Source of the DNA: Corallococcus carmarthensis
Lineage (GTDB): Bacteria; Myxococcota; Myxococcia; Myxococcales; Myxococcaceae
Assembly (NCBI RefSeq): GCF_003611695.1
Contig: NZ_RAWE01000040.1
Coordinates: 1 to 59,943, forward strand
Reading direction: 5' to 3'
Length of the DNA: 59,943 bases
Below are positions 25,348 through 48,041 of this stretch, in pieces; the first letter of the stretch is position 1, and every line of letters begins with the position of its first letter. A model generated the notes under the pieces. It was not told where the DNA came from and did not search any database. It was given only the letters and a program-made list of their open reading frames with translations. Made by a program: the position numbers and the translations under genes.

Positions 25348-26502
25348 ATGGACTCCCATGAGACCCGGGACGCGATCCGCGCGTCCGTGCGTGCCCTCTG
25401 CAACCGCTTCCCTCCGAAGTACTGGCGCACCCTCGACGCGGAGCGTGAATACCCTCACGACTTCGTCAAGGCCCTCACCGAGGCCGGCCTGCTGGCGGCC
25501 CTCATCCCGGCCGAGTACGGCGGCGCGGGGCTGGGCCTGCGCGAGGCGGCCGTGGTGCTGGGGGAGATCAACCACTTCGGCGGGAACGCGTCCGCGTGTC
25601 ATGCGCAGATGTATGTGATGAACGTGCTGCTGCGGCACGGCTCCGCGGAGCAGAAGCAGCGGTACCTGCCGGAGATCGCCGCGGGCCTGCTGCGGCTCCA
25701 GGCGTTCGCCGTGACGGAGCCGAACTCGGGCTCGGACACCACCGCCATCGAGACGACGGCGGTCCGGCGGGGGGACCGCTACGTCGTGAACGGCCAGAAG
25801 ATCTTCATCTCGCGCGTCCTCCAGTCCGACCTGATGCTTTTGCTCGCACGGACGACACCCCGGGCGGAGGTGCGCAAGAAGACGGAGGGGATGAGCGTGT
25901 TCCTGCTCGACCTGCGCAAGACGCAGGGACTGGAGGTGCGGCCCATCCGAACCATGCTCAACCACGCGACGAACGCGCTGTTCTTCGAGGACGTCGAAGT
26001 GCCCGCCGAGGGGCTGATTGGCGAAGAGGGCAAGGGCTTCTCGTACATCCTGGACGGCATGAACGCGGAGCGGGTGCTCGTCGCCTCGGAGGCGATCGGG
26101 GATGGCCGCTGGTTCATCGAGAAGGCCGTCACCTATGCGCAGGAGCGCGTGGTGTTCGGCAAGCCGATTGGCGCGAACCAGGGCGTGCAGTTCCCCATCG
26201 CGAAGGCGCACACGGCGCTCACGGCCGCGTCCCTGCTGACGGAGCAGGCCGCGACGCTCTTCGACAGCCACCAGTCCTGCGCGGCCGAAGCGAACATGGC
26301 GAAGTACCTGGCCGCCGAAGCCGCCTGGGAGGCCGCCAACGCCTGCATGGACACCTACGGCGGCTATGGCTTCGCGGAGGAGTACGACGTCGAGCGCAAG
26401 TTCCGCGAGGTGCGCCTGTTCATCAACGCCCCCGTGAGCCGGAACATGGCGCTGTCGTACATCAGCCAGCACGTGCTCGGGCTGCCCCGCTCGTTCACGT
26501 AA
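25348..26502 (+). CDS. Acyl-CoA dehydrogenase family protein
   Basis: A flavin-dependent dehydrogenase that introduces an alpha-beta double bond into an acyl thioester. The 384 residues are standard length. Signatures are IPAEYGGAGLG (N-terminal helical domain), LQAFAVTEPNSGSDTTAIET (FAD/substrate signature 1), GDRYVVNGQKIFISR, and near the C-terminus CMDTYGGYGFAEEYDVER (signature 2 region). The usual catalytic Glu position falls in the YGGYGFAEEY helix-loop, but the substrate cannot be assigned. ATG 25348 starts MDSHETRDAIRASV. It converges with the quinone-oxidoreductase gene, with an 8-base overlap of 3' ends. It may supply desaturated acyl chains to the adjacent ketosynthase/FAAL locus, but that is only positional inference. 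Confidence 0.92.
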   Translation: MDSHETRDAIRASVRALCNRFPPKYWRTLDAEREYPHDFVKALTEAGLLAALIPAEYGGAGLGLREAAVVLGEINHFGGNASACHAQMYVMNVLLRHGSAEQKQRYLPEIAAGLLRLQAFAVTEPNSGSDTTAIETTAVRRGDRYVVNGQKIFISRVLQSDLMLLLARTTPRAEVRKKTEGMSVFLLDLRKTQGLEVRPIRTMLNHATNALFFEDVEVPAEGLIGEEGKGFSYILDGMNAERVLVASEAIGDGRWFIEKAVTYAQERVVFGKPIGANQGVQFPIAKAHTALTAASLLTEQAATLFDSHQSCAAEANMAKYLAAEAAWEAANACMDTYGGYGFAEEYDVERKFREVRLFINAPVSRNMALSYISQHVLGLPRSFT

Positions 26503-27499
26503 CGCCGGGCGGCGCGTCCCGGCCCTCGCGGACGTGGATCACGACCTTGCCGATGGCGCGTCGCTCCGCGAGGGTGCGCAGGCCGTCGGCGGTCTGATCC
26601 AGGGGGAGCCGAAGGGTGATGCGCGGAGTGATGCGGCCCTGCGCGTACCAGGAGAAGAGCTGGTCCATGGTTTCGCGGAGCGCGGCCGGGTCGTGGTAGC
26701 GGAAGTAGCGCAGCGACGACCCCAGCACCGCGCGGTGCTTCACGAGCAGCCGGTGGGCGGGGATGTTCGGCGCCTGGCCCGCGGCGAAGCCCACGAGCAC
26801 GTAGCGGCCTCCCCAGCCCAGCGTTGACAGCGCCGGATCGAAGAGCGGGCCTCCGACGGGATCGAAACAGACGCTCACGCCGGAGGACCCCGCGACGGCG
26901 AGGACCTGCTCCTTCCAGTTGGCATCGGCGTGGCTGATGACGTGGTCCGCGCCTGCTGCTCGCGCGACGGCCAGCTTGTCCGGTGTGCTCGCGACCGCGA
27001 TGACGGTGGCGCCCAGCGCCTTGCCCAACTGCACCGCCGCGAGCCCCACGCCGCCGCTGGCTCCAAGCACGAGGAGCACCTCCGACGGTTTCAGGTGGGC
27101 GACGCGTGTCAGCGCCAGGGCGGTGCTCACGTAGGCGCTGGTCAGCGCGGCGCCGACGTCGAAGGAGACGCCCGCTGGCAGCAGGAAGGTCTCCCGTGCC
27201 GAAGCCACCGCCTGCTCTGCGTAGCCCCCGTGCCACAGGATGGCTACGACCCGGTCTCCGGGTTGGAAGCCCGAGCCTTCGGGGGCGCTGGCGATCGTGC
27301 CCGCTGCCTCCAATCCGGGGACGAAGGGCAGCGCGGGACGGGTCTGATAGGTCCCGCCAATCATGAGGAGGTCGGCGAAGTTCACGCTGCAGGCGTGCAC
27401 GTCGATCTTCACCTCATCGGACTTGGGGACAGGCTCCGGGAACTCCGTGAGGGTGAGCTGCTCGGGGCCGCCCCACGTCCCGCAGACAATCGCTCGCAC
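26495..27499 (-). CDS. Quinone oxidoreductase-like zinc-independent MDR
   Basis: A medium-chain dehydrogenase/reductase of the NADPH:quinone oxidoreductase / enoyl-reductase type, 334 residues. The GroES-like N-terminal domain (VHACSVNFADLLMIGGTYQ, FVPGLEAAG) lacks the catalytic-zinc cysteine and histidine pattern of alcohol dehydrogenases. The Rossmann fold is LGASGGVGLAAVQLGKALGA. It reduces a quinone or an activated C=C bond with NADPH. The start is GTG at 27499. It follows the aldo-keto reductase stop by 1 base, so it is the last gene of the KS-thioesterase-AKR-QOR operon and could act as a tailoring enoyl reductase. Confidence 0.9.
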   Translation of the reverse strand: MRAIVCGTWGGPEQLTLTEFPEPVPKSDEVKIDVHACSVNFADLLMIGGTYQTRPALPFVPGLEAAGTIASAPEGSGFQPGDRVVAILWHGGYAEQAVASARETFLLPAGVSFDVGAALTSAYVSTALALTRVAHLKPSEVLLVLGASGGVGLAAVQLGKALGATVIAVASTPDKLAVARAAGADHVISHADANWKEQVLAVAGSSGVSVCFDPVGGPLFDPALSTLGWGGRYVLVGFAAGQAPNIPAHRLLVKHRAVLGSSLRYFRYHDPAALRETMDQLFSWYAQGRITPRITLRLPLDQTADGLRTLAERRAIGKVVIHVREGRDAPPGVT

Positions 27500-27500
27500 G

Positions 27501-28472
27501 TCATCGCTCCTGGGTGGAAGGGGCCGCGAGGCTTCGCCAGAGGTCGTCGTTCGCGGGCAGGCCCGACGCCTCGGTCACCATTTGCTCGAGTTGCTCCGGG
27601 CTGCGCGCGCCGACGAGGATCGACGTCACGAAGGGACAGTGCACCAACCACCAGGTGGCAAGACCCGACGGTGACAGCGAGTGGGCGGCGGCCTGCGACT
27701 TCAGGTGTTCGACGCGCGCCGCGTTCTCCGGGGTCCAGGCCTTCGCGTAGAGGTCCCGGCGCTGCCCGATGCGCGTGCCTTCTGGAATCTCACCTGCGAT
27801 GGCGTACCTGCCGCTCAGCAGGCCGCCCGCCAACGGCGAATAGGGCGTGTACTGGAGCCCCAGCTTCGCGCAGGCCTCCAGCACGCCGTTGTGGGCGTCG
27901 TCCCGTTCGAGCAGGTTGAAGCGGTTCTGGACCCAGCCGAACCCCACGGGTCCACCCGAGCGTGGAGCGGCACAGCGCCAGAGGTCGCTCGCGGCCACGT
28001 TCGACAGGCCGAAGCGGCGGACCTTGCCCGCCCTCACGAGGGCCTGGAAGGTGTCGAGCACTTCGTCCCAAGGTGTGGCGGGGTCGGGCACGTGCGACAG
28101 GTAGAAGTCGAGCGCGTCGATGTGAAGACGCGCGAGCGAGCGGTCCACCTCCGCGAACACGTGCTTCCGCCCGAGCCCGCCGCGAAGGCCGACCTTGGAG
28201 GAGATGAGCACGCGGTCTCGCATCGCGGCACCGCGCGATGCCAGCCAGGCCCCGATGATGGATTCGCTGGCTCCGTCCGCGTAGGTGCCCGCCGTGTCGA
28301 TGAGGTTGATCCCCAACGCCACCGCGCGGTCCAGGAGCGCATGAGCTTCTGCTTCGGTCTCTCCCTGGCCCAGCAGCTTCCGGGAGCTTCCAATGCCTCC
28401 GAAGTTGGCCGCCCCCAGGGCGAAGACTGACACGTCGATGCCGCCAAGCTTGCGGTAGATCACGTCCGCCAC
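27501..28472 (-). CDS. Aldo/keto reductase
   Basis: An NADPH-dependent carbonyl reductase of the TIM-barrel AKR superfamily, 323 residues. The catalytic tetrad is visible: Asp and Tyr in INLIDTAGTYADGASE, Lys in RVLISSKVGLRG and His in DFYLSHVPDP. The coenzyme-binding C-terminal part contains YTPYSPLAGGLLSGRY and LVGARSPEQLEQ. Its start overlaps the thioesterase 3' end by 13 bases, placing it in the same minus-strand operon. It is a plausible ketoreductase for the beta-keto product of the upstream ketosynthase protein (inference). Confidence 0.92.
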   Translation of the reverse strand: MADVIYRKLGGIDVSVFALGAANFGGIGSSRKLLGQGETEAEAHALLDRAVALGINLIDTAGTYADGASESIIGAWLASRGAAMRDRVLISSKVGLRGGLGRKHVFAEVDRSLARLHIDALDFYLSHVPDPATPWDEVLDTFQALVRAGKVRRFGLSNVAASDLWRCAAPRSGGPVGFGWVQNRFNLLERDDAHNGVLEACAKLGLQYTPYSPLAGGLLSGRYAIAGEIPEGTRIGQRRDLYAKAWTPENAARVEHLKSQAAAHSLSPSGLATWWLVHCPFVTSILVGARSPEQLEQMVTEASGLPANDDLWRSLAAPSTQER

Positions 28473-28987
28473 GCCTCCGGAAAGGGCAACGCCAGGTCCC
28501 CCTCCCCTGCACCGGAGGCAGCGGGCTGGCCAAGCAACGTGAAGTGCGCCGTGTAGGTCGCGGCGGGCGCGCCGTCGTCGATGAAGACCTGTGACGTGGC
28601 CGTGAGCCGCACCTTGCCGCCCTGACGAAGCATGTCGGCGTCCAGCGTGGGCAACGCGCCACAGCGGGCCCGGTAGTCGCAGGTGATGGGCCGGTGGATG
28701 GCGAACTCACAGCGGCGCAGGAGGATCTGCACGGAGAGCCGCTCCGCCCACGCCGCCCGCACGAGCAACAACCAGGGCGCGAGCCCCGCCGAGGTGAACA
28801 CCCCCGGACCGAAGGCCGTCCCCCGGTGGTTCAACGATGGGCCCAGCGGCGCCTCGATCACGATGCGCCCGGGTTCGAACTCCACGAAGTGGATGCCCAG
28901 GAACTTCGTCATCGGGATCCGCTCATGGAGCTCTCGCGCGAGTCGGGCCAGGACCGCTCCCTGTTCCTCGTCCAGGTGGAGGCTCAT
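28460..28987 (-). CDS. YiiD_C-type hotdog thioesterase
   Basis: A predicted acyl-thioesterase of the hotdog fold (YiiD C-terminal / putative thioesterase family), 175 residues. Evidence: FLGIHFVEFEPGRIVIEAPL then NHRGTAFGPGVFTSAGLAPW, the central hotdog helix region, and alternating strands to the end (VRLTATSQVFIDDGAPAATY). ATG 28987 (MSLHLDEEQGAVLA) is supported by the ATGA overlap with the preceding duplicated mini-frame and by the copy of the same N-terminus found upstream. In the operon it lies between the tandem ketosynthase and the aldo-keto reductase, which suggests hydrolytic release of an acyl intermediate. Confidence 0.83.
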   Translation of the reverse strand: MSLHLDEEQGAVLARLARELHERIPMTKFLGIHFVEFEPGRIVIEAPLGPSLNHRGTAFGPGVFTSAGLAPWLLLVRAAWAERLSVQILLRRCEFAIHRPITCDYRARCGALPTLDADMLRQGGKVRLTATSQVFIDDGAPAATYTAHFTLLGQPAASGAGEGDLALPFPEAWRT

Positions 28988-29143
28988 GATCCGGACACCT
29001 GGGGGGCCGGCCCGGCTTCGAGCACGATCGGGATCCACGCATGGAGTTCCCGCGCCAGCCACGCCATGACGTCCTCCTGCTCTTCGTTCAGGTGAAGGCT
29101 CATGCTCCGCGCACCTGGAGGTCGGGCCCGGCTTCGAGCACGA
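28912..29143 (-). repeat. 116-bp diverged tandem duplication
   Basis: Two adjacent units, 29028-29143 and 28912-29027, each contain the tail of the ketosynthase gene (..VLEAGP..QV.G. stop) and the head of the thioesterase gene (MSLHL.EEQ....LARELH.WIPI or ERIPM). The offset is exactly 116 bases. The units have diverged at many positions, so the event is not recent. Confidence 0.8.
28984..29103 (-). pseudogene. Chimeric 39-codon mini-frame from a tandem duplication
   Basis: This frame begins as a copy of the thioesterase N-terminus (MSLHLNEEQEDVMAWLAREL) and ends as a copy of the ketosynthase C-terminus (VLEAGPAPQVSGS). It starts in an ATGA overlap with the ketosynthase stop and stops in an ATGA overlap with the thioesterase start. 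It is the product of a duplication across the gene junction, and is probably translated only as a coupling peptide, if at all. Confidence 0.75.
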
Positions 29144-31892
29144 CGTGGTAGTGGGTGCCTCCGCCTGCGGCCGCGTTCACTCCCGCGAAGCGCGCCTCCT
29201 TCAGCTCTTCGCGGCCCGTGATGACTCGAAGGTTGTCGGCCGCGCCGACGAGTGGGGTCGTTACCCCCACTGTTGGTGGGACCCGCTTCGCGGCCAGCGC
29301 GAACAGCGCCTTCATCAGGCTCGCGGCTCCCGAGGCCGCACCGGTGTGACCGATGTTCGGCATGACCGCACCAATGGGCAGCGGCCTGGCTCGCGCGGTG
29401 GCGAGCGTCCGCCCCAGGGCAGCAAGCTCCGCCCGATCGCTGGAGGGATGACCGCTGCCTGAGCACTCCACGAAGGCGAGCGCGTCCGCCGACACATCAC
29501 ACCGTCCATAGGCACGCCGGATGGCCAGGCTCATCGCGGGCTCGGAGACGAGGCCGAGGTCGTCTGGCGTCCCGAACGCGCTGCCCATCGCCCGGATGAT
29601 CCCGAGCACCGGTTCCCCTCGCTCCTGCGCGTCCGACAAGCGGCGCAGCAGGCACACCGTGGCGCCTTCACCGGGCAGGTACCCGTCTGACGCTGTGTCG
29701 AACGCGGTCGGTGTGTCCCGGCGGGACAGGAGCCCCAGCGCGTCTTCGTCGGCCAGGCGCGTGACTCCGAGCCGCATGTCCGCCGTCGCCCAGAAGACCG
29801 CGTCCGCCTCACGGGATGCCAGCCGGCCGCATGCGACCTCCAGGCCTCCCATGGACGCCGCCGCGCCTCCGGCCTCGATGGCGCAGGTCGGTCCGGTCAG
29901 GTCGAACGCCCGGGCGATCCTCGCCGCCATGAAGCTGGGCGACAGGTTGAACAGGCTGCCGGCCCACAGCTCCGGCAGGTCGCTCGACAGGCGCTTCGTC
30001 GCCGCGCGCACCGTCCGGGCCACCCCCTTGGAGTCCTTGCCCGTCTCACGCAACACGCGCTGGAGGTGCTCCTCGATCTCCGGCAGACGTGCCGCGGCGA
30101 CCTGGCGCAGGCCGTACCCGGTGCAGTGCTCCGCGGAGACGACCACCGGGATGTTGCTTCCCCGTTCGATGGAGACCTTCGTGGCCGCGCTTCGCGCAAG
30201 GTCCACCAGCAGGTAGTGGAGCGGATCATGCCGGAGGATGTCGGCGGGACGTTCGTCGTACTGGCTGGCGCTGCCGGTAAACCGGTTTGCATCCAGGTCC
30301 AGCGGCGCACCGAGCCCGAACGGCAACCTCCGGAATGCACGGCGACCGTGGAGCAGGTTCGTCCACAGCGTGGCGAGGTCGGGGGCGTCCGCGAACGCTC
30401 CCGCCATGCCCACGATGGCGATGGGCTCGTCACTCCTCGCGGGGCTTCTTCGTGTGCCTCGCAGCAGCGCCTGGGCTCGCGCGGGTGAAGGCCGGTCCTC
30501 CACCACCGCGTGGTAGTTCTGGCCTCCGCTCGCGATGGCGCTGACGCCCCCGATGCGCGGCTGCTCGCCCGCCGGCCAGGAGCGGGCGGTCCGCTCGACC
30601 TCGATGAGCCCTCCGGGTTCGAGCAGGCTCCGGGGCTTGTCCCCGTGGACCGGTCCCGGGATGCCCCCGGACTCGAACAGGGCGAGCAGCGCGACCAGGT
30701 TCGCCAGGCCCGAGGCCTCCTTCGCATGCCCCAGGTTCCCCTTGATGGACATCACGGGCACCGGCGACGCGGGCTGGGCTGCCTCCCCATGCGCCTTCAA
30801 GGCCCGATCAAAGACCTTCGCCTCCACGGCATCCCCAGCCCGCGTGCCCGTGCCGTGCGCGAGGATCACGCCCAGTTCCCGTGGCGCCACGCCTGCCTGG
30901 TCGAGCGCACGCCGGACCGCCAGCGCATGTCCGCGCGGGTTCGGGACCAACATGTACGCTTCAGCGGCGCCGTCGTTCGCCCCCCCGACGCCACGGATCA
31001 CGCCGTGGATGGGAAGCCGCTCCCGCGAGGCCCGCTCCAGGCTCGTGAGCACCAGCAGCACCACGCCGTCGGAGATGACGGTGCCATTCCCCTTCTGGGC
31101 GAACGGGAAGCAGCCCTCGGACGACAGCAGACGTGAGTTCGAATAGAGGACCTGGTTGACCGTGTCGACGTAGGACAGCGCGCCCGCGATGGCCCACGGC
31201 GCGCCCTTCGCGAGCTCTCGCGCCGCCAGCTCAACCGCGGCCAGACCGCCGGTGCAGTTCCCGTCCACGAGCAGCGCCTTCTCCGTGGTCCCCAGCGCCT
31301 CCGCGATGGCGCTCGCCAGCCGGTGCGTGGCGCGCTCCCTCGGGTCCTCCACGAAGTCCGGCCCGAACGACTCCCGGAGTGACTGGCGCACCTTCCGGGT
31401 GAGGTCCGTCAGCTCCTGATGGGAGAACTCGTTCGGATGCGCGCCGTGAACGAGGTACGGCTGGAGCTGTCCCGCCACGGCCAGCACCGCGGCGTCGTAG
31501 AGGCCATGACCGCCCCCGCGCGAGTGCGCGAGGAACACCGGAACCGGCTGCCCACCGAGCGACCCAGGAGCCAGCCCCGCCGAGGCCAGGGCCCGGTGCG
31601 CCGTCTCCACGACCCACCGGTGCGGCACCTTCGACGGACCCGATGCGTCCTCGGGAAGCTCGCGCGAACCCACCACCCCACCCAGCAGCGTGGAGATCCG
31701 GGCCGCGCCCACGGCCGCCGAGGGGTCCAGATACAGGGCCCGGGGAATGCGCTCCTCCGGCCACTGGCCATACGTCGTCTTCCCCCCGTGTAGCACTTCC
31801 GCCAGTTCATCGAGTGTGCGAGCGCCCGGCAAGGCGAACGCAAAACCAGAGATCGCAACCGGCGCGATCCCATCCAGATGTCCCTTCAGCAT
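29100..31892 (-). CDS. Tandem ketosynthase protein, second KS degenerate
   Basis: A 930-residue protein made of two thiolase-fold beta-ketoacyl synthases. KS1 (about 10-490) has the active-site triad: Cys213 in LLVDGNCTGGLAAV, His346 in AHGTGTRAGD and His389 in IKGNLGHAKEASGL. KS2 (about 510-925) begins PIAIVGMAGAFADAP, but has EAGGAAASMGG where TACSSS is expected and SGSGHPSSDRAE where HGTGT is expected; only NIGHTGAASG remains. KS2 is therefore predicted to be catalytically dead, like the chain-length-factor partner of type II or PUFA synthases, here fused. There is no AT or ACP domain, so it must use acyl groups on a separate carrier. ATG 31892 starts MLKGHLDGIAPVAISGFAF. It is the first gene of the minus-strand operon and is divergent from the plus-strand biosynthetic genes. 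Confidence 0.88.
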   Translation of the reverse strand: MLKGHLDGIAPVAISGFAFALPGARTLDELAEVLHGGKTTYGQWPEERIPRALYLDPSAAVGAARISTLLGGVVGSRELPEDASGPSKVPHRWVVETAHRALASAGLAPGSLGGQPVPVFLAHSRGGGHGLYDAAVLAVAGQLQPYLVHGAHPNEFSHQELTDLTRKVRQSLRESFGPDFVEDPRERATHRLASAIAEALGTTEKALLVDGNCTGGLAAVELAARELAKGAPWAIAGALSYVDTVNQVLYSNSRLLSSEGCFPFAQKGNGTVISDGVVLLVLTSLERASRERLPIHGVIRGVGGANDGAAEAYMLVPNPRGHALAVRRALDQAGVAPRELGVILAHGTGTRAGDAVEAKVFDRALKAHGEAAQPASPVPVMSIKGNLGHAKEASGLANLVALLALFESGGIPGPVHGDKPRSLLEPGGLIEVERTARSWPAGEQPRIGGVSAIASGGQNYHAVVEDRPSPARAQALLRGTRRSPARSDEPIAIVGMAGAFADAPDLATLWTNLLHGRRAFRRLPFGLGAPLDLDANRFTGSASQYDERPADILRHDPLHYLLVDLARSAATKVSIERGSNIPVVVSAEHCTGYGLRQVAAARLPEIEEHLQRVLRETGKDSKGVARTVRAATKRLSSDLPELWAGSLFNLSPSFMAARIARAFDLTGPTCAIEAGGAAASMGGLEVACGRLASREADAVFWATADMRLGVTRLADEDALGLLSRRDTPTAFDTASDGYLPGEGATVCLLRRLSDAQERGEPVLGIIRAMGSAFGTPDDLGLVSEPAMSLAIRRAYGRCDVSADALAFVECSGSGHPSSDRAELAALGRTLATARARPLPIGAVMPNIGHTGAASGAASLMKALFALAAKRVPPTVGVTTPLVGAADNLRVITGREELKEARFAGVNAAAGGGTHYHVVLEAGPDLQVRGA

Positions 31893-32246
31893 TGCCAGAC
31901 AATGTAAGGACCCGATCCGGATGCGTCCACGACCAGCCAAATCACATACAAAAAGACCAACACGTGACGGCGTCGCCGGGATCCTACCCGACGCATGCAA
32001 GGGGTTGCGCTCCCGGATCGGCATCGCCCTCCTGGGAGCGTCGTTCCCGAGCCCGTGGGCGGGTGATAGGGTTTCAAGCCGCGCGTTCCATCCAGGCCCT
32101 ATCAAAGGCTGTCTTTTTCGAGTGAGCCTGTTCAAGCCATGGGTGGATTGACGCCGGACTTTCGCATCAGTATATCAAGTCAGACATCGCGGCCCATTTC
32201 CTATCAGTTGGCTGCCGCTCCCTTCCCCTCATCCCCTGGACAGCCC
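31893..32246. promoter_or_regulatory. Divergent promoter region of the biosynthetic locus
   Basis: 354 bases with no gene. It separates the ketosynthase operon (minus) from the seven-gene plus-strand operon, so both promoters must be here. It contains AT-rich patches against the GC-rich background, near 31938-31962 (AAATCACATACAAAAAGACC) and near 32160-32205 (CATCAGTATATCAAGT). I find no copy of the palindrome seen upstream of the GntR gene. Confidence 0.55.
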
Positions 32247-33161
32247 ATGAAAAGACTCGATCCGAGCCGTCTCAAGGATTCGTTCATCAATGTCTCCACC
32301 TTTCCGGCGGACCTGGGTGAAGGCCGCTCGGCGGCTCCGGCTCCCGCGCTGCTCGACGCCATCGTCGAAGCCGTGGAGAAGAAGAACGGGTTCGCGGTGG
32401 TGTTCGGCGTGAACAAGCTGCTCGCGGAGCGCGGGCTGGACCTCCACACCGAGTCCGGCGCCGCGCTGGCCCGCGACTTCCTGGAGGGCGTCTTCCGGGC
32501 GATCGCGCCTCGCTTCGATCTGTCGCGCTACAGCCCCACGCCCATCACGTACGACCGCGTCGCCAAGATGGACGTGGACGGCTTCAACAAGAACCGGAAC
32601 TTCACGCCCAACAGCGACCACACGGAGAGCCGCGAGTTCGTCACCACGAAGTGCGTCCACTTCGATTCGGCGACGCCGTTCATCGCGAACCTCTACGGGC
32701 CCAACCAGAACATCAGCGGCGGCATGCCGATGATCTGCGACACGCGCCGGTTCTGCCAGGACAAGGGCCTGGATCCGCGGGCGCTCATCGAGAACATCCC
32801 CAACAACTACAACGTCGCGGTGAAGGCGGAGTTCTCCGAGGAGATCCTGCGCGACTACTCGTTCGCGCTGAAGCTGGACCTGGAGAACGACATCGTGATG
32901 ATCGTCCTCCACAACGAGGTGGTGGGCGGGCTCGCCCACGCGGCCACCCAGCCGTCCCTCACCGACGCGAGCAAGGCCGCGAAGCGCCCCATCCGGCACG
33001 TCGAGTACCAGGTCGCGGACTCCAACGACCTCAAGCGCTGGTACGACTACTACGGCCTGTCGCTGGAGAAGGCGACGAACCACAAGGAGGACGCCAACAT
33101 CACCCGCTTCGTCAGCGGCGAGCTCAACCCCTACCCGAACGTCATCGAGGTGCGGGCATGA
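32247..33161 (+). CDS. Uncharacterised protein, possible Fe(II) oxygenase
   Basis: I do not recognise this 304-residue family firmly. A His-x-Asp pair sits in KCVHFDSATPFIANLYGPNQ followed by NISGGMPMICDTRRF, a layout seen at the iron site of 2-oxoglutarate-type oxygenases, and a later histidine (IVLHNEVVGGLAH) could be the distal ligand. The N-terminal part is helical. No signal peptide. ATG 32247 (MKRLDPSRLKDSFINV) is chosen; the frame is open upstream but without conserved-looking sequence. Its stop overlaps the next start (ATGA), so it is the first gene of a tightly coupled plus-strand operon. The oxygenase role is inference only. Confidence 0.6.
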   Translation: MKRLDPSRLKDSFINVSTFPADLGEGRSAAPAPALLDAIVEAVEKKNGFAVVFGVNKLLAERGLDLHTESGAALARDFLEGVFRAIAPRFDLSRYSPTPITYDRVAKMDVDGFNKNRNFTPNSDHTESREFVTTKCVHFDSATPFIANLYGPNQNISGGMPMICDTRRFCQDKGLDPRALIENIPNNYNVAVKAEFSEEILRDYSFALKLDLENDIVMIVLHNEVVGGLAHAATQPSLTDASKAAKRPIRHVEYQVADSNDLKRWYDYYGLSLEKATNHKEDANITRFVSGELNPYPNVIEVRA

Positions 33162-39974: not shown

Positions 39975-40069
39975 CGCGCCGCATCAGGCCCAGGGCCGCG
40001 CCCGCTTTCGCGTCCATGTCAGACCCCTGTGGTCTGGTGCGAGAGGCTTGGACGAGGAGGGGGACGGGG

Positions 40070-41290
40070 ATGGTGCGGGTGGGGCTCGTGGCGTACGTGG
40101 AGGAGCAGCTCGAGCGCGATATTTCGCTGGGGAGGCTGCCGAGAAGCGGGGAGTTGGGCTCGGAAAGGATGCTGGCGCGCATCTACGGGGTGAGTCGGGG
40201 CACGGTGCGCGAGGCACTGCGGCGGCTGGCGGCGCGAGGGCTGGTGGTGCAGCGCTCCGCGCGCAGGGCGCGCGCGGTGGCGCTGGATGAGTCGCTGACG
40301 CTGGAGAACCTGGGACTGGCGCTGCATGACGAGCGCCGCCCGGAGTGCCGGCGGCTGCTGGAGGGCTTCTTCAGCCTCAAGCGGCAGGTGCTGGTGGAGT
40401 TGCTGGCCGACTGCTGCGCGAGGGCCTCCGGGGCGGACCTGCGCCCGTTGGAGGATGCCTGCTTCAGGCTTTGGGACGCGGCGCGATGGCACCCAGGGGT
40501 CCGCTGCGCGCAGTTGGAATTCGAGCTGCTGAGGCTGGCGGCCCGGATTGCGGAGCGCCCAGGGCACCTGCTCCTCATCCAGTCGCTGCAGTGGGCCTTG
40601 CGAGGCAAGGCGTCCCGGCTGCTGTCCCTCATGGGCGGCGAGCCGCTGCGCCAGTGGACCACCTGCGCGATGGGGGCCCTGGACACTCGCGACGTGCAGC
40701 GACTCCAGCACGAGCTGCCGGCGCTGCTGAAGGCGTGCGATGAGCGCGTGCTGGACGACTTCGCCCCCGCCCCCCAGGCGCAGGAGTCCCCTCAAGCCCA
40801 GGACGCCCAGGAGTGCTTCGTCGGCGCTCCTGAGTCAGTCACCGAGCAGGACGATGCGCCCGCGGCACGCCCCTTCGTTGAAGAGCTTGGCCTCGACCGC
40901 CCCGCGCCGGCCAACGAGGCCAACGAGGTGCTCGGAGTTGCCTCCTGCCCCCAGGTGCAGGCTCCTCCCTTGGAGGCAGACAGCGGGGCGCTGCCGTTTC
41001 CATCCGTCCCTGAGCCCACTCCCCGTGAGCCCGGTGGGGAGTGCACAGAGGCGGACGGGACGAACGCAGCCTTGGGCAATCTGCCCGACTGTCGGACAGG
41101 GTGGGCCGCTTCGTCTCCAGAGGGGACCCTCCAGGTCGAACCTCCACCGGCCGACTCCCTCGGCCCCACCCGCGTGACGGTTCGCAAGGAGGACGAAGCT
41201 CTTCGCGGCACTCAGAGGAACCCTCTGAGCCGGTGGGCAGCACGCCTCTGGCGCTTCATTGCCCATTTTTTGGGGTCACCTGCTTCGTGA
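40070..41290 (+). CDS. GntR-type transcriptional regulator with long C-terminal tail
   Basis: A 406-residue regulator. Residues about 3-70 form a GntR winged helix (VAYVEEQLERDISLGRLPRS, ERMLARIYGVSRGTVREALRR, LAARGLVVQRSARRARAV). Residues about 85-215 are helical and FCD-like (FadR C-terminal type), which often binds an acyl-CoA or carboxylate. After residue ~225 the protein is a long acidic, proline-rich, presumably disordered tail ending in a hydrophobic helix (WAARLWRFIAHFLGS) that may be membrane-associated, an odd addition for a GntR protein. ATG 40070 has a good ribosome site (GAGGAGGGGGACGGGG). A perfect FadR-like palindrome lies 95 bases upstream and a second, imperfect one inside its own 3' end. 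Confidence 0.82.
   Translation: MVRVGLVAYVEEQLERDISLGRLPRSGELGSERMLARIYGVSRGTVREALRRLAARGLVVQRSARRARAVALDESLTLENLGLALHDERRPECRRLLEGFFSLKRQVLVELLADCCARASGADLRPLEDACFRLWDAARWHPGVRCAQLEFELLRLAARIAERPGHLLLIQSLQWALRGKASRLLSLMGGEPLRQWTTCAMGALDTRDVQRLQHELPALLKACDERVLDDFAPAPQAQESPQAQDAQECFVGAPESVTEQDDAPAARPFVEELGLDRPAPANEANEVLGVASCPQVQAPPLEADSGALPFPSVPEPTPREPGGECTEADGTNAALGNLPDCRTGWAASSPEGTLQVEPPPADSLGPTRVTVRKEDEALRGTQRNPLSRWAARLWRFIAHFLGSPAS
41081..41100. promoter_or_regulatory. Second operator-like site before the NRPS gene
   Basis: CTGCCCGACTGTCGGACAGG is an imperfect dyad (8 of 9 arm positions pair) that shares the CCGAC-n-GTCGG centre with the palindrome at 39950. It is inside the 3' coding part of the regulator, about 490 bases before the megasynthase start, so its role is uncertain. 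Confidence 0.4.
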
Positions 41291-41585
41291 GCGGCGACAG
41301 CCCTTCGCGTCCTCTCTCGCCCATGAAGCCGACGTATGTCCCCTTGCGGGGGAGAACCTGCGGCGATTGACCGCGCACGCATCCGCCCGATACCGCGCCT
41401 CCACGCCGGATGGGGCAACGAGCTTCTGGCCAACCCTTCAGGCGATGCGTCTTCCGGCGCAGCGGTGAGTCGGAACCCGCCGCATCGGACGCATGCGCGC
41501 CTCCGTCCCTCCTCGCGGAGGTGGAAGTCAGACCTCTGGTCCATGGTCCGGGTTCCTCGCACCTTTCTCGTTAAGGGACTTGTTC

Positions 41586-44500
41586 ATGGATGCAGTGAGG
41601 AACGGCGAAGACCTCTTCCATTCAGCCACCAATCTCGTGGACCTGCTCTGCCTGCGCGCGGAGCAGTTGGGAGAAGCGCGGCTCTACCGCTTCCTGGAAA
41701 CCGGAGACGTGGAGGGCTCTTCGGAGGAGTGGAGTTTCGCCCACCTGGACACGCTGGCGCGGGCGCTGGGCGCGTGGCTGCGGACGCTGAACGCAACCGG
41801 TGAGCGGGCGCTGCTCCTGTACCCGCCGGGCCTGGAGTTCGTCGCGGGGTTCATGGGCTGCCTGTACGCAGGGGCCATCGCCGTGCCGTGCTACCCGCCG
41901 GATCCCTCGCGCATGGACCGCACGCTGCCCCGTCTGCGCGCCATCGCACGGGACTGCGGTGCGCGCTTCGTGCTGACGACGAGCGGCATCCTGGAGATGT
42001 CCGAGTTCCTCACGCCTCAGGCGCCGGAGCTGGGTGAGCTCCAATGGGTGGCCACGGACATGGTGCCGATGTCGCTCGCGGCGGCCTGGAAGCGGCCGGA
42101 GCTGGCGCCGGACATGCTGGCGTTCCTCCAGTACACGTCCGGATCCACGGGCAACCCCAAGGGCGTGAAGGTGAGCCACGCCAACATCCTGCACAACGAG
42201 AAGCTCATCACGCGCGCGTTCGGCTTGAAGCCAGGCCGCTCGCACGGCGTGGGTTGGCTGCCGATGTTCCATGACATGGGGCTCATCGGGAAGGTGCTCC
42301 AGCCGCTCGCGCTGGGCTTCGAGTGCACGCTGATGTCGCCCATCGCCTTCCTGCAGCGCCCGCTGCGCTGGCTGGAGGCCATCTCTCATTTCCGCGGCAC
42401 GGCCAGCGGGGGACCCAACTTCGCGTTCGAGCTGTGCGTGCGCGAGGCGAAGGACGCGGACCTGACGCGGCTGGACCTGAGCAGTTGGAACCTGGCGTTC
42501 AACGGCGCGGAGCCCGTGCGCCACGAGACGATGGAGCGGTTCGTCCAGGTGTTCGAGCCGTGTGGCTTCCGCCGTGAGGCGCTCTATCCCTGCTACGGGC
42601 TCGCGGAGACGACGCTGATCGTCACCGGCGGCACCAGGGGCACGCGCTACGTGCACGGACACTACGATGCGGCCTCGCTGGAGCGCGGCACGGCGCTGCC
42701 CGCGAGCGAAGGAGCGGGGACGCGGGGACTGGTGTCGTCGGGTCGCGGCTCGCCGGATCAGCGGCTGCTCATCGTGGACCCGGAGTCTCGCCAGGAACGT
42801 GCGCCGGGCGCGGTGGGTGAAATCTGGGTCGCTGGGCCGAGCGTGGCGGGCGGCTATTGGAACCGTCCCGAGGAGACGGCCCACGCCTTCGACGGGCGGC
42901 TGGCCAACGGCGAGGGGCCGTACCTGCGCACCGGTGATCTGGGCTTCGTGTCCGGGGACGGAGAGCTGTTCGTCACCGGCCGGCTCAAGGACCTGCTGAT
43001 CATCCGGGGCCGCAACCTGTATCCGAACGACCTGGAGTTGACGGTGGAGCAGGCGCACCGGGCCGTGCGTCCGGGCTGCACCGCCGCGTTCCGCGTGGAG
43101 GTGGACGGCGAGGAGCGCCTGGCCCTCGCCGCCGAAGTGGATGTGCGCGAGGACTTCGACGCGAACGCGGTCGTCTCCGCGTTGCGCGCGGCGCTCGCGC
43201 AGGAGCACGAGGTGAACGCGCACGCGGTGCTGCTGCTCCAGGCGCGCAGCATTCCGAAGACGTCCAGCGGGAAGATCCAGCGGCACGCCACCCGGGAGGC
43301 GTACCTCGCGGGCGAGCTTGAGATCATCGGTTCCTCCGTCGCGCAGGAAGTACCGGCGGTGGAACCGGTGGCCTCCGTCCCCGTGCTCGAGCGCCTGGAG
43401 GCCGCGTCCGAAGCTGAGCGGCCCGCCGTCCTCACCGGGTTCCTGCGCGAGACGCTGGCCCGTGCGCTGCGCGTGGCGCCTGGGGCTCTTGCCGATGATG
43501 TCTCGCTCGCGGGGCTGGGGCTGGACTCGCTGATGGCGATCGAGCTGCACGGTGAACTGGAGACGGCGCTGGGCGTGTCCCTGTCGCCCGCGTTCCTCTG
43601 GCAGCACCCCACCCTCGCCTCCGCCGCGCTGGGGATGTTGGAGGCGTGGCGCGGGGCCTCGGGTGCCGTGCTGCCTCCGCTGACGCGCGGGCACCTGGAT
43701 GGGGATTTGCCGCTGTCCTCGGGCCAGCAGCGGCTGTGGTTCCTGGATCGGCTGGTTCCCGACAGCGCCCTCTACAACGTCCACTTCCAGCTGCACCTGA
43801 CCGGAAAGCTGGATGAGGCCGCGCTGCGGAGTGCGCTCGATGGGTTGTTGCTGCGTCACCCCGTGCTTCGCGCCTCCTTCCCCGAAGTGGAAGGCCAGCC
43901 GCGCCAGGTCGTGGCCCCTGTCGCGTCGCTGGAACTGCCGCGCATCAACCTGCGTGCGCTCCCTCTGGACGAACGTGAAGCGGCGCTGCGGCGGCATGCG
44001 CTCGCGCACGGACAGCCGCCCTTCCGGCTGGCGGAAGGGCCACTCGTGCGTGCCGCGCTCGTGGCCCTGGATGACTCCGAGCACGTCCTGCTCATGACCC
44101 AGCATCACATCGTCACCGATGGCTGGACCCTGGGCCTGCTCGCGCGCGAACTGGCGGTGCTCTACGGCGAGGCCCTGGCGGGTGGCTCCAGCACCCTGCC
44201 GCTGCCCTCCTTCCTGCCGGTGGACCATGCGCGGTGGCAGCGTGGCCTGGGCCCCCTGCTGGATGATTCGCGGGCGTGGTGGGGACGGCGCCTGGAGCAC
44301 CTGCCCCGGCTGGAACTACCCACGGACTTCCCGCGTCCACGCGAGCCGAAGTTCCACGGCGCGCTGCACCGGCTGTCGCTGCCGCGCCCGCTGGTGGACT
44401 CCCTGAAGGCGCTGGGACGCGAGGAGGGCTGCACCCTCTTCATCACGCTGGCGGCGGCGTGGACGGCGCTCCTGCACCGCTACAGCGCGCAGGAGGACTT

Positions 44501-47500
44501 CGGCCTGGGCACCCTCGTGGCCAACCGCGAGCGGCCCGGCTTGCGCGACATGGTGGGCTTCCTCGCGAGCACGCTGGTGCTGCGGATGGACGTGTCAGGC
44601 GCACCGGCCTTTCGTGAGCTGCTGGGCCGCGTGCGCCGCACCTTCCATGAAGCCCTGGCCCATGCGGACGTGCCCTTCGAGGACGTCGTGGGCGCGGCTC
44701 GCGCGAACCGTGGCGCGGAGAACCCGCTGTTCCAGGTGAACCTCCTGCTGGAGACCCTGCCCCCCGTGTCCATGGACGTGCCCGGCATGACGTGGCGGCC
44801 GGTGCTGCCCACGCCCGACGGCGCAGTGGAGGGCACCGCGAAGTTCGACCTCCAGCTCGCGCTGGTGGAGACGCCCGAGGGCCTGGACGGCGCGCTGGAG
44901 TATCGAACCGACCTCTTCACTCCCGACACTGCGGCGAGGCTGGCCCGGCACTTCCGGACGCTGCTGGAGGGCGTGGTCGCCTCTCCCGGGATGTCAGTGG
45001 CGGACGTGCCGCTCCTCAATGAGACGGAGCGGAACACGCTGCTCCACGAGTGGAACGACCTGACGCTACCGTCCCTGCCGGATGACTCGCGTTGCCTGCC
45101 CGCGCAGTTCCGCGCGCAGGTGGCTCGCACTCCGGACGCGGTGGCGGTGGTGGCGGATGATGAAACGCTCACCTACACGCAGCTGGATGCGGCCAGTGAC
45201 GCGCTGGCGTGGCACCTGCGCGAACACGGTGTCGCGCGCGACGTGCGCGTGGGTCTGTGCGTGGAGCGCTCCGCCAGCATGGTGGTGGCGATGCTCGGCA
45301 TCCTCAAGGCGGGCGGCGCCTACGTCCCGCTGGATCCGGACTCCCCGCGCGAGCGGCTGGCGGCGATGCTGGAGGACTCGCAGGCGCGGGTGCTCGTCAC
45401 GCAGTCGCACCTGGTCCAGGCCCTGCCGGCGGACGGCGTGCGCACCGTCCTCCTGGACTCGGAGGATGCCTTCGAGCTGGAGGTGCTGGGACCTCCTCGC
45501 GCGGGCACGACGCCGGATGACCTGGCCTACGTCATCTACACTTCCGGCTCCACCGGCAAGCCCAAGGGCGTGATGGTGCCGCACGGGAGCGTGGCGAACT
45601 TCTTCAGCGCCATGGACTCGCGCGTGGGCGCGGCTCCCGTGGGCACGTGGCTCGCCGTCACCAGCATCTCCTTCGACATCTCCGTGCTGGAGCTGCTGTG
45701 GACGCTCGTGCGTGGCTTCCGCGTCGTGGTGCAGGGCGATGGCGCGGCGATGAAGACGCCCGCTCGCCGCGCTCCGGCCGTTTGGCGGAAGCCGCTGGAC
45801 TTCAGCCTCTTCTACTTCGCGGATGACGCGGAGGCGGCCGGGGGCGACCGCTACCAGCTGCTGCTGGAGGGCGCGAAGTACGCGGACGCCCATGGCTTCG
45901 CCGCCGTGTGGACGCCCGAGCGGCACTTCCATGCCTTCGGCGGCCTCTACCCCAGCCCCGCCGTCGCGAGCGCCGCCATCGCCGCCGTGACGAAGCACAT
46001 CGCCATCCGCGCGGGCAGCGTCGTGCTGCCCCTCCACCACCCGGTGCGAGTGGCCGAGGAGTGGGCGCTCGTGGACAACCTCTCCGGAGGCCGGGTGGGC
46101 ATCTCCGTCGCCTCCGGGTGGCATTCGAACGACTTCGTCTTCGCACCCGAACACTACGAACAGCGGCGCGAACGGATGCTGGAGGGCGTGGAGACACTGC
46201 GCCGGCTGTGGGCGGGAGAGACGGTGCGGTTCCCCGGCGGCGCGTGCGCGAAGGTGGACGTGACGCTGCGGCCCCGCCCCGTGCAGCGGGCGCTCCCCCT
46301 GTGGCTCACCGCCGCGGGCAATCCGGACACGTTCGTCAGCGCCGGCCGCATGGGCTGCCACGTCCTCACCCACCTGCTGGGCCAGACGTGGGAGGACCTG
46401 GAGCGGAAGGTGTCGCTCTACCGCCGGGCCTGGCGCGACGCGGGCCATGAGGGGGACGGCCACGTCACGCTCATGCTGCACACGTACATTGGCGAGGACG
46501 AGGCCCAGGTGCGCTCCGTGGTGGAGGGCCCCTTCCGCGACTCCCTCAAGAGCTCCGCGGACCTGATGCGGGGCCTGGGGCGCACGCTGGGCATGGACAT
46601 GGACGCGGCCACAACAGCGGACCTGGACCGGCTCGCGGGCCATGCCTTCGAGCGCTACTTCGAGACGAGCGGCCTGTTCGGCACACCCCGCTCGGTGCGA
46701 GAGCGCGTGGAGCAGCTCCAGGGGCTCGGCGTGGACGAGGTGGGCTGCCTCATCGACTTCGGCATCCCCACGCAGACGGTGCTCGACAGCCTGCCGCGCC
46801 TGCGCGAGGTGAAGGACCGTCACGCGCGGGACCACCGCCGCATCGGACGGGGCCGCTCCATCCCCGAACACCTGCGCGAGTCCGGCATCACGCACCTGCA
46901 GGGCACGCCGTCGCTGGCGCGCACGCTGCTGGCGGACGACCGCGCGGCGCAGTCGCTGACAGGCCTGCGCCGCTTGATGGTGGGCGGAGAAGCCCTGCCC
47001 GGAGCCCTGGCAGTGGCCCTGCGGCAACACCTGTCCAAAGACGCCGAGCTGCTCAACATGTACGGTCCCACGGAGACCACCATCTGGTCCGCCACGCACT
47101 GCGTGGATCCGGATACGGGTGAAGGCGTGGTGCCCCTGGGCACACCCATCCTGCGCACGCAGCTCTACGTGTTGGACGCGCGCATGGCACCGGTGCCGGT
47201 GGGCGTGCCCGGCGAGCTTTACATCGGCGGAGAGGGAGTCGTGCGCGGCTATCTGTTCCGCCCCGCGCTCACGGCGGAGCGCTTCGTACCGGATCCGTTC
47301 AGCGAGCTGCCAGGCTCACGGCTGTACCGCACGGGCGACCGGGCCCGCTGGAGGCCGGACGGCACGGTGGAGTTCCTGGGCCGCATGGACCACCAGCTCA
47401 AGGTGCGAGGCTTCCGCATCGAGGCCGGTGAAATCGAAGCGGCGCTGACGGCGCAACCCTCCGTGCGCGAAGCCGTGGTCGTGGCACGCGAGGACGTCCC

Positions 47501-48041
47501 GGGAGACGTGCGGCTCATCGCCTACGTCGTGGCCCGTCCAGGCATGACCGTGGAGGGCAACGCCCTACGCGAGGCCGTGGCGCGGCGGCTGCCCGAGTAC
47601 ATGGTGCCGTCGGTGGTGATGGAGCTTCAGGTCCTGCCGCTCACGCCCAACGGCAAGGTGGACCGCAAGGCCCTGCCCGCGCCCACCGCGGCGCGGGCCA
47701 CCCGCGCCGCGTACGTGGCCCCCGAGGGCCAGGTGGAGGAGCGCATCGCGGAGGTGTGGCGCAACGTGCTGCGCGTCGAACAGGTGGGCGTGCACGACCA
47801 CTTCTTCGACCTGGGCGGGCACTCACTGCTGATGGTGCAGGCCCATGCGCAGCTGAAGACCGTGCTGGGCCAGGACCTGCCCCTGCTCAAGCTGCTGGAG
47901 CACCCCACCATCCGCGCGCTGGCGAAACTCGCCCGGCAGGAGCCCGCCACCGCGCAGGCCTCCGTGGACGCGGCCCAGGACCGCGCGAAGCGGCAGCTGG
48001 AGAGCCTCAAGCGCCAGCGTCAGCGGACGGGCCGCGAGTAA
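41586..48041 (+). CDS. FAAL-ACP-C-A(monooxygenase)-PCP megasynthase
   Basis: A 2151-residue hybrid NRPS. Order: fatty acyl-AMP ligase (about 1-585; FLQYTSGSTGNPKGV, then FAAL-type RLKDLLIIRGRNLYPNDLEL); ACP (about 610-695, GLGLDSL); condensation domain (about 710-1140, active HHIVTDG near 839); adenylation N-part (about 1175-1400; VIYTSGSTGKPKGVM, A4 FDISVLELLWTL); embedded FMN-dependent luciferase-like monooxygenase of the MupA/Atu3671 type (about 1402-1751; FSLFYFADDAEAAGGDRYQL, WTPERHFHAFGG); adenylation C-part (GTPSLARTLL, NMYGPTETTIW, YRTGDRARW, PNGKVDRKAL); PCP (about 2060-2130, DLGGHSL). My reading of the specificity code is D-I-L-Q-M-G-M-I-W-K, close to the glycine code DILQLGLIWK. 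There is no thioesterase or reductase domain. Start ATG 41586 follows AAGGGA; the 295-base gap before it holds no gene. Confidence 0.94.
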   Translation: MDAVRNGEDLFHSATNLVDLLCLRAEQLGEARLYRFLETGDVEGSSEEWSFAHLDTLARALGAWLRTLNATGERALLLYPPGLEFVAGFMGCLYAGAIAVPCYPPDPSRMDRTLPRLRAIARDCGARFVLTTSGILEMSEFLTPQAPELGELQWVATDMVPMSLAAAWKRPELAPDMLAFLQYTSGSTGNPKGVKVSHANILHNEKLITRAFGLKPGRSHGVGWLPMFHDMGLIGKVLQPLALGFECTLMSPIAFLQRPLRWLEAISHFRGTASGGPNFAFELCVREAKDADLTRLDLSSWNLAFNGAEPVRHETMERFVQVFEPCGFRREALYPCYGLAETTLIVTGGTRGTRYVHGHYDAASLERGTALPASEGAGTRGLVSSGRGSPDQRLLIVDPESRQERAPGAVGEIWVAGPSVAGGYWNRPEETAHAFDGRLANGEGPYLRTGDLGFVSGDGELFVTGRLKDLLIIRGRNLYPNDLELTVEQAHRAVRPGCTAAFRVEVDGEERLALAAEVDVREDFDANAVVSALRAALAQEHEVNAHAVLLLQARSIPKTSSGKIQRHATREAYLAGELEIIGSSVAQEVPAVEPVASVPVLERLEAASEAERPAVLTGFLRETLARALRVAPGALADDVSLAGLGLDSLMAIELHGELETALGVSLSPAFLWQHPTLASAALGMLEAWRGASGAVLPPLTRGHLDGDLPLSSGQQRLWFLDRLVPDSALYNVHFQLHLTGKLDEAALRSALDGLLLRHPVLRASFPEVEGQPRQVVAPVASLELPRINLRALPLDEREAALRRHALAHGQPPFRLAEGPLVRAALVALDDSEHVLLMTQHHIVTDGWTLGLLARELAVLYGEALAGGSSTLPLPSFLPVDHARWQRGLGPLLDDSRAWWGRRLEHLPRLELPTDFPRPREPKFHGALHRLSLPRPLVDSLKALGREEGCTLFITLAAAWTALLHRYSAQEDFGLGTLVANRERPGLRDMVGFLASTLVLRMDVSGAPAFRELLGRVRRTFHEALAHADVPFEDVVGAARANRGAENPLFQVNLLLETLPPVSMDVPGMTWRPVLPTPDGAVEGTAKFDLQLALVETPEGLDGALEYRTDLFTPDTAARLARHFRTLLEGVVASPGMSVADVPLLNETERNTLLHEWNDLTLPSLPDDSRCLPAQFRAQVARTPDAVAVVADDETLTYTQLDAASDALAWHLREHGVARDVRVGLCVERSASMVVAMLGILKAGGAYVPLDPDSPRERLAAMLEDSQARVLVTQSHLVQALPADGVRTVLLDSEDAFELEVLGPPRAGTTPDDLAYVIYTSGSTGKPKGVMVPHGSVANFFSAMDSRVGAAPVGTWLAVTSISFDISVLELLWTLVRGFRVVVQGDGAAMKTPARRAPAVWRKPLDFSLFYFADDAEAAGGDRYQLLLEGAKYADAHGFAAVWTPERHFHAFGGLYPSPAVASAAIAAVTKHIAIRAGSVVLPLHHPVRVAEEWALVDNLSGGRVGISVASGWHSNDFVFAPEHYEQRRERMLEGVETLRRLWAGETVRFPGGACAKVDVTLRPRPVQRALPLWLTAAGNPDTFVSAGRMGCHVLTHLLGQTWEDLERKVSLYRRAWRDAGHEGDGHVTLMLHTYIGEDEAQVRSVVEGPFRDSLKSSADLMRGLGRTLGMDMDAATTADLDRLAGHAFERYFETSGLFGTPRSVRERVEQLQGLGVDEVGCLIDFGIPTQTVLDSLPRLREVKDRHARDHRRIGRGRSIPEHLRESGITHLQGTPSLARTLLADDRAAQSLTGLRRLMVGGEALPGALAVALRQHLSKDAELLNMYGPTETTIWSATHCVDPDTGEGVVPLGTPILRTQLYVLDARMAPVPVGVPGELYIGGEGVVRGYLFRPALTAERFVPDPFSELPGSRLYRTGDRARWRPDGTVEFLGRMDHQLKVRGFRIEAGEIEAALTAQPSVREAVVVAREDVPGDVRLIAYVVARPGMTVEGNALREAVARRLPEYMVPSVVMELQVLPLTPNGKVDRKALPAPTAARATRAAYVAPEGQVEERIAEVWRNVLRVEQVGVHDHFFDLGGHSLLMVQAHAQLKTVLGQDLPLLKLLEHPTIRALAKLARQEPATAQASVDAAQDRAKRQLESLKRQRQRTGRE

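Follow-up and report, generated by a model that had tools for sequence, protein, structure and literature searches.

Ketomethylene pseudopeptides made by α-oxoamine synthases (AOS) are peptide mimics that are studied as protease inhibitors, and to our knowledge few pathways to such compounds are known. The closest described system is that of ketomemicin, a pseudopeptide with a carbon–carbon isostere of the peptide bond, whose formation combines an AOS with an ATP-grasp ligase and is described as proceeding without a nonribosomal peptide synthetase (NRPS); the ktm clusters (ktmA–F) are reported to encode an aldolase, an AOS, a dehydratase, an ATP-grasp ligase, an amidinotransferase and a dehydrogenase (PMC11943689). 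Here, we analyzed a stretch of 59,943 nucleotides from Corallococcus carmarthensis (contig NZ_RAWE01000040.1), in the following termed the window, in which eleven genes designated A to K (26,495–39,793; Table 1) form two divergent operons. This core is a real, conserved and apparently uncharacterized biosynthetic unit. No publication on the locus was found in the open-access PMC literature, as judged by titles and the beginnings of abstracts, and the statement of an initial annotation of this DNA that no characterized pathway is recognizable still agrees with the best reading. We propose, with a probability of roughly 0.4, that the core and an adjacent acyl-CoA dehydrogenase (ACAD) gene constitute a free-standing, NRPS-independent pathway, in which a ketosynthase–chain length factor (KS–CLF) and an AOS would build the carbon skeleton and two ATP-grasp ligases would form the amides.

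Like the ktm clusters, the core combines an AOS (ktmB and G, respectively) with an ATP-grasp ligase for amide formation and does without an NRPS. The ktm clusters possess the dehydrogenase ktmF, and the core contains H, a dehydrogenase-like protein of the ornithine cyclodeaminase (OCD) family. However, matches to an aldolase (ktmA), a dehydratase (ktmC) or an amidinotransferase (ktmE) were not found in the core with Pfam, and it is therefore not a ktm cluster. The core additionally contains an oxygenase, the orphan protein E, an esterase and the ACAD, and its acyl donor apparently originates from the KS–CLF. The ligases differ as well: the ktm enzyme is presumably of the pheganomycin PGM1 type, whereas K belongs to the LAL_C2 family, J resembles circularly permuted ATP-grasp enzymes, and neither of the two matches PGM1_C in Pfam.

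Order and orientation of A to K are kept in 10 of the 16 genomes of the genus, with orthologues defined as protein matches of at least 65% identity. Among 145 genomes of the order, orthologues of G with 89–97% identity were detected in nine further genomes, and a search with the window proteins showed that all nine loci carry A to K in the same order (in G061 and G066, K is split over two fetched halves). A phylum-wide search for E, which covered 195 genomes, gave matches in ten; these are the same ten, all of them Corallococcus. The core genes are under purifying selection: in comparisons of three genome pairs, the dN/dS values of all eleven lay between 0.07 and 0.43. Furthermore, the catalytic motifs of C, F, G, I, K and of the first KS of D are kept in all ten genomes; in the underlying motif table, one of the ten K rows is a split fragment with gaps. 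According to the coordinates of the open reading frames, adjacent genes within an operon either overlap or are separated by no more than 112 bases. As the initial annotation had claimed, the operons share a divergent promoter region, which parts them in 10/10 core genomes and comprises 197–354 bases. A MAFFT alignment revealed therein a block containing GTCGTTCC that is kept in all ten genomes and is possibly the site of a regulator.

The genomic site of the core was deduced from its flanking genes. In all six genomes of the genus that lack the core, cinA and ribBA are separated by only 1.8–5.5 kb, compared to 23.7 kb in the window. A cinA-like gene lies on the core contig in 10/10 core genomes and ribBA in six of them (the window, G057–G060 and G062); the contig of G066 stops 3.1 kb past K, and G061 gave no ribBA match. 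The core of G069 is deleted except for two remnants next to cinA (locus L115, 1362–2948): the C-terminal portion of J, which contains a stop codon, and K, which carries a frameshift. The core was thus once present in G069 and is now being lost, and the decay of both J and K indicates that leftover ligases degenerate after the loss of the remaining core.

By sequence, G is a fold-type I AOS: its score with NF005697 exceeds the cut-off, and the Lys that binds pyridoxal phosphate (PLP) is found within ASxAKAFGSTGG in 10/10 genomes. The nearest solved chains are 8XHA, 8XHD, 8XHK and 8I7U with 290 bits, followed by a group with 87 bits. The closest of them, 8XHA, is Alb29, an AOS of the albogrisin pathway that is reported to accept L-glutamate and acyl-CoAs (PMC11906848); residues of the loop to which its amino acid selectivity is ascribed differ in G. 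A second AOS relative (55–58%) is located beside a gene of the MDR family (L011–L028). It occurs in the genera g3 and g19 as well as in members of the window's genus both with and without the core, and belongs to a different cluster.

The nearest relative of H is the ketimine reductase/mu-crystallin 4BV8, followed by lysine cyclodeaminase and P2C reductase, and a GGH motif of H is conserved in 10/10 genomes. The supply of an unusual amino acid, which had been ascribed to this protein, is thus not required, given that its nearest solved relative is a ketimine reductase. The PDB chain nearest to I, 9OVH, is named ethylene/succinate-forming enzyme. Two oxygenase-type proteins had been assigned to the plus-strand operon; I is indeed a 2-oxoglutarate (2OG)-Fe(II) oxygenase, and E matches no family.

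D contains a Cys-His-His triad in its first KS (Cys213, His346 and His389), and its second KS lacks the catalytic Cys; this composition, which is that of a KS and a Cys-less CLF partner, was observed in 10/10 genomes. Among PDB chains, 6RIW, the KS–CLF didomain of the polyunsaturated fatty acid (PUFA) synthase of Moritella marina (PMC9138089), matches D across the two domains in one alignment. D resembles the PUFA synthase protein PfaC and the KS–CYF pair AmcF–AmcG of cispentacin biosynthesis, where an active KS is likewise fused to or paired with a Cys-less KS. In contrast to these systems, no acyl carrier protein (ACP), acyltransferase or dehydratase was recognized in the locus of D. Cispentacin-type clusters are reported to occur in Corallococcus (PMC10698177). 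An assignment of D to this type was considered and rejected: the NCBIfam model of AmcF gave 191.7 bits, distributed over two stretches, compared to a cut-off of 325 bits, and no search was aimed at AmcG.

C, initially annotated as a thioesterase, is a hotdog protein, and its family is PF09500, which is described as the Mad family of malonyl-ACP decarboxylases (MadA/MadB) on the basis of work that includes MadB mutagenesis (PMC8666670). The equivalent of the catalytic Asn45, assigned with alignments to 8AYV and 1T82, is kept in 10/10 genomes; Thr49 and Phe51 are kept as well. C thereby shares fold and Asn45 with MadA and MadB; unlike these proteins, it has two conserved loop residues changed and is encoded in a biosynthetic operon.

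The initial annotation listed two ATP-grasp-type ligases. For K, this is confirmed by Pfam, and its relatives are BL00235 (3VOT) and BacD. J alone has no match in Pfam and none in PDB searches with the single sequence and with a profile; its assignment came from profile–profile comparison. A tblastn search of 72,556 plasmid records identified relatives of J in Rhizobium lusitanum (34.9%) and Streptomyces (22%). Altogether 33 records matched, two of them at E < 1e-3, and the 31 others stem from Rhizobium (30) and Selenomonas (1); the 18 listed among these weak matches have E 0.6, lie under dioxygenase genes and were treated as chance. An alignment of seven J sequences keeps Arg115, Asp117, Glu129, Asn131, Lys327, Gly336, Gln365, Arg405 and Asn414. 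In hhalign, the profile of these seven sequences matched that of three CP_ATPgrasp_2 proteins of the genus with a probability of 95.3 and an E-value of 2.2e-8 over 249 columns; the match is colinear and covers the Lys, the Gly-rich loop and the Gln hinge of circularly permuted ATP-grasp enzymes. A profile of Corallococcus sequences only gave a probability of 2.0 against CP_ATPgrasp, and control pairs were run alongside these comparisons. By itself, the Rhizobium relative shows sub-threshold Pfam matches to GSP_synth and CP_ATPgrasp. A scan of genome contigs for exact peptide patterns of J, which distant relatives could escape, gave 6 Corallococcus loci. J is predicted to be a circularly permuted ATP-grasp-type ligase.

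The orphan protein E has the invariant residues H138, D140, H222, H231, R247 and R250, and its HFD motif is invariant. It matched no family in Pfam, nothing in PDB searches with the single sequence and with a profile, and no plasmid record in tblastn. By eye, its HxD…GG…H…R pattern is similar to that of 2OG-Fe_Oxy_2 (PF10014) and IDO-type dioxygenases. This candidate was rejected, as hhalign, BLASTP with a Rhodococcus member and hmmsearch gave nothing; in an unfiltered hmmsearch against PF10014, E scored -3.2, and 99 of the 264 scored shuffles (500 were run) were as good or better.

The ACAD gene, located between the cinA-like gene and A, was not considered part of the unit in the initial annotation. 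It was found by tblastn in 10/10 core genomes, adjoining A in eight of them and separated from it by approximately 3 kb in the other two, G060 and G062; the stretches fetched from the six genomes without a core gave no match to it. Its substitutions are concentrated at one codon position (124/28/18 compared to L043). The sequence of about 3 kb between ACAD and A occurs only in G060 and G062 (L122, 5949–8000, plus L037, 1–980; L123, 6119–8000, plus L041, 1–1190).

The pairing of AOS and ATP-grasp enzymes recurs outside Corallococcus. A plasmid of Rhizobium lusitanum encodes relatives of the AOS (47%), the OCD protein (33%) and J (35%) within 15.2 kb, together with genes for an HpcH/HpaI aldolase and MaoC. 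The respective run (L084, 5811–17914) comprises genes for a FemAB-like protein, an MFS protein, an aldolase, an acetaldehyde-dehydrogenase-like protein, a carbamoyltransferase, the AOS, the HpcH/HpaI aldolase, MaoC, the OCD protein, an SDR and a serine acetyltransferase, and shows a ktm-like logic in an alphaproteobacterium. On a plasmid of Rhodococcus sp. AQ5-07 (L091, 8986–19197), an AOS (40%) is accompanied by a 2OG-Fe dioxygenase, a PGM1-related ligase, a second class I/II enzyme, an ACP, an ACAD, an AMP-binding protein and an NRPS. A Streptomyces plasmid carries distant relatives of J (22%) and K (26%) approximately 6 kb apart.

Judging from the sequences, a pathway with the following steps, order and product may be envisaged. 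C would decarboxylate a malonyl thioester to provide the starter, which D would extend with malonyl units on a carrier recruited from other systems of the cell; B and A would act as reductases, and the ACAD would adjust unsaturation. G would then join the resulting thioester to an amino acid in a decarboxylative condensation, yielding an α-amino ketone, i.e. a dipeptide isostere. H may reduce an imine, possibly a cyclic one, or a related unsaturation, I and perhaps E may oxidize, K and J would attach amino acids, and F would hydrolyze a late or protected intermediate. The expected product is a small pseudopeptide that contains an amino ketone, or a heterocycle formed from such a compound. A bolder version, which we regard as improbable, is that the locus represents a class of polyketide–amino acid hybrids formed without an NRPS or a dedicated carrier: a stand-alone KS–CLF would feed an AOS, two unlike ATP-grasp ligases would complete a peptidyl ketone, which may be unsaturated or oxidized and carry an enzyme-inhibiting warhead, and E would represent a new family of metal-dependent oxygenases with the H138/D140 motif. 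The warhead is suggested by the presence of the ACAD and the oxygenase.

Several observations weigh against the proposed pathway. Scanning 24–41.4 kb with a regular expression identified no ACP (small open reading frames were not scanned with Pfam, and one antisense match inside I was dismissed), and the KS–CLF would therefore need a borrowed carrier or CoA substrates. In C, Ser and Arg replace the Mad loop residues Asn43 and His47, and alanine at the loop positions 43/47 of MadB is reported to have reduced activity 10-fold (PMC8666670). The substrate of G is not readable from its sequence; in the loop to which amino acid selectivity is ascribed, L and R of Alb29 are replaced by M and E in G (compared by eye), and thus use of L-Glu by G is not implied. 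AF2 models of E and J, calculated with alignments of seven sequences, had mean pLDDT values of 40.2 and 45.2 and were too poor to use. With respect to the genomic site, ribBA is found on another contig in G070 and G064, despite at least 21 kb being available beyond K. Finally, the parallel loci are imperfect. The Rhizobium relative of J is encoded 12.7 kb from the AOS on the opposite strand, where it belongs to a different group of genes and adjoins an acyltransferase, and OCD is a common family, 33% identity to the Rhizobium protein being unremarkable. The plasmid search with the AOS matched 166 records, and six annotated neighbourhoods were read; only that of Rhodococcus contains such a cluster, and the AOS genes of the other five adjoin genes for conjugation, regulators, transporters, acetolactate synthase or fatty acids.

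AOS chemistry also underlies sphingolipid synthesis. The core could accordingly make an aminolipid: the KS–CLF would produce a long acyl chain, G would convert it to a sphingoid-like amino ketone, the reductases would tailor it, and the ATP-grasp ligases would load the head group with amino acids. This route agrees with the finding that the nearest match to D across its two domains is the didomain of a PUFA synthase, and sphingolipids derived from polyketide synthases have been reported (PMC12134224). We nevertheless judge it unlikely, given that G reaches at most 77 bits with models of serine palmitoyltransferase compared to 486 for PRK07505, that lipid synthesis would not be expected to involve two peptide ligases and an OCD protein, and that the locus is confined to one genus. 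A further possibility is that H is a true cyclodeaminase and acts together with I and E to provide a hydroxylated amino acid of the proline or pipecolate type, which K and J would join to others; the KS–CLF would then provide an acyl cap, and G would be a side branch. Lysine cyclodeaminase and P2C reductase are among the solved relatives of H, and I is a 2OG oxygenase. However, the best match of H is the ketimine reductase 4BV8, and its invariant GGH presumably stands at the position where cyclodeaminases carry an Asp, so that this assignment is also rather doubtful. If the NRPS-independent pseudopeptide pathway is correct, the locus joins polyketide chemistry to pseudopeptide logic in predatory soil bacteria. 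The core is a small set of mostly single-domain enzymes and is amenable to expression and testing; J, having no Pfam match of its own, and the orphan E are worthwhile for structural work.

According to the initial annotation, the operons and the FAAL-NRPS located downstream of K form one pathway. The two proposed operons hold as one conserved unit; the inclusion of the NRPS does not, and we consider a common pathway highly improbable. Operons and NRPS are side by side in the window, and likewise in G061, where the start of the NRPS is followed by the contig end (the remainder, 88% over 1,731 residues, is found on another contig). Synteny, based on protein matches of at least 50% identity and nucleotide pieces of at least 60 or at least 100 bases, shows that they are not co-conserved: in five genomes an intact core lies beside a missing or fragmentary NRPS. 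In G057 and G059, at most 60 bases after K, the sequence matches the window from 48,111 and 48,102 onwards, i.e. 3' of the NRPS. G062 has 1.3 kb of different filler sequence in place of the NRPS. In G058 and G060, only two NRPS fragments are left, which correspond to 41.5–42.1 and 45.0–45.7 kb of the window. In G064, G066 and G070, no NRPS orthologue was found beside K in the fetched stretches, that of G066 being short; G070 possesses other NRPS genes near K, which are 36–52% alike in parts. Conversely, the monooxygenase domain of the NRPS occurs with at least 78% identity in 28 of 96 genomes of the family, of which three have the core (G000, G061 and G057, in the latter on another contig) and 25 do not. 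Five full-length examples of the NRPS, four of them from core-less genomes, are 69–80% identical over 2,133–2,171 residues. Because the NRPS is absent beside intact cores and present without a core, the two systems do not need each other.

Their vicinity is nevertheless probably old. The two NRPS pieces of G058 and G060 also occur in the core-less G068, and the core-less genomes G063, G065, G067 and G071 contain smaller ones. These relics in seven genomes (L033, 18331–19694; L037, 16983–18284; L114, 3563–4859; smaller in L116–L119) lie at the same place, which makes a shared ancestral arrangement likely, a point in favour of a common pathway. Three have nearly shared breakpoints (window positions ~42,106/45,002) and four are shorter (~41,781/45,078); this similarity suggests one old internal deletion. 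Core and NRPS are thus probably long-standing neighbours.

The NRPS had been described as a one-module enzyme, and the monooxygenase embedded in its adenylation domain had been missed. This FMN-dependent LLM-type domain comprises residues 1437–1774 (TIGR04020, 514.7 bits). We read the adenylation code, by eye and with GrsA positions, as DILHLVMIW(K), which we take to resemble a glycine code. In myxothiazol and melithiazol biosynthesis, a monooxygenase inside a glycine adenylation domain is reported to hydroxylate Cα, whereupon the N–C bond breaks (PMC11342130). The window NRPS shares the position of the monooxygenase with these modules; in contrast to them, it is a single protein that has its own loader, consisting of a fatty acyl-AMP ligase (FAAL) and an ACP, and no thioesterase. 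Based on this precedent and the glycine-like code, the expected product is a fatty primary amide. Separately from the core, this NRPS, which occurs in many genomes of the family, is of interest as a candidate one-protein fatty-amide synthetase.

Table 1. Features of the locus in the C. carmarthensis window, with the basis of each assignment.
Feature	Coordinates	Strand	Assignment and basis
ACAD	25348..26502	+	Acyl-CoA dehydrogenase, 384 aa; Pfam PF00441/PF02771/PF02770; twelfth gene, convergent with A
A	26495..27499	-	MDR-family oxidoreductase, enoyl-reductase-like; PF00107/PF08240; TIGR02824 235.8 bits, under cut-off
B	27501..28472	-	Aldo/keto reductase (AKR); PF00248
C	28460..28987	-	YiiD_C hotdog protein, Mad (malonyl-ACP decarboxylase) family; PF09500 68.4 bits, cut-off 27
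D	29100..31892	-	Fused KS-KS0, KS-CLF-like didomain; Pfam/NCBIfam; alignment to 6RIW
Divergent promoter region (predicted)	31893..32246		Conserved block with GTCGTTCC; MAFFT alignment
E	32247..33161	+	304-aa orphan protein; matches no family
F	33158..34069	+	Hormone-sensitive-lipase (HSL)-type α/β hydrolase; PF07859; HGGG, GDSAG motifs
G	34066..35295	+	AOS, PRK07505 subfamily, 8-amino-7-oxononanoate synthase (AONS)-type PLP enzyme; NF005697 485.9 bits, cut-off 342
H	35311..36252	+	OCD/mu-crystallin family, ketimine-reductase-like; PF02423; 4BV8 E 5.8e-30
I	36275..37243	+	2OG-Fe(II) oxygenase; PF03171/PF14226; 9OVH E 2.4e-31; HxD...H...R
J	37253..38608	+	Predicted circularly permuted ATP-grasp-type ligase, remote CP_ATPgrasp relative; hhalign profile-profile
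K	38612..39793	+	ATP-grasp L-amino acid ligase (LAL_C2); PF18603/PF13535; BL00235 3VOT E 1.1e-26
GntR	40016..41290	+	GntR-type regulator, outside core; PF00392
NRPS	41493..48041	+	FAAL-ACP-condensation-adenylation (embedded FMN monooxygenase)-peptidyl carrier protein, 2,182 aa, outside core; Pfam/NCBIfam, TIGR04020

For the remaining genes, Pfam and NCBIfam back the families given previously, i.e. those of the MDR protein, the AKR, the KS-KS protein, the hydrolase, the AONS-type enzyme, the OCD protein, one ATP-grasp ligase, the GntR regulator and the FAAL-NRPS. The GntR gene had no match in the other fetched core loci. Upstream of the locus, the GC content is 0.53–0.54 at 6001–12000, compared to 0.64–0.74 elsewhere in the window, which may indicate a mobile element.

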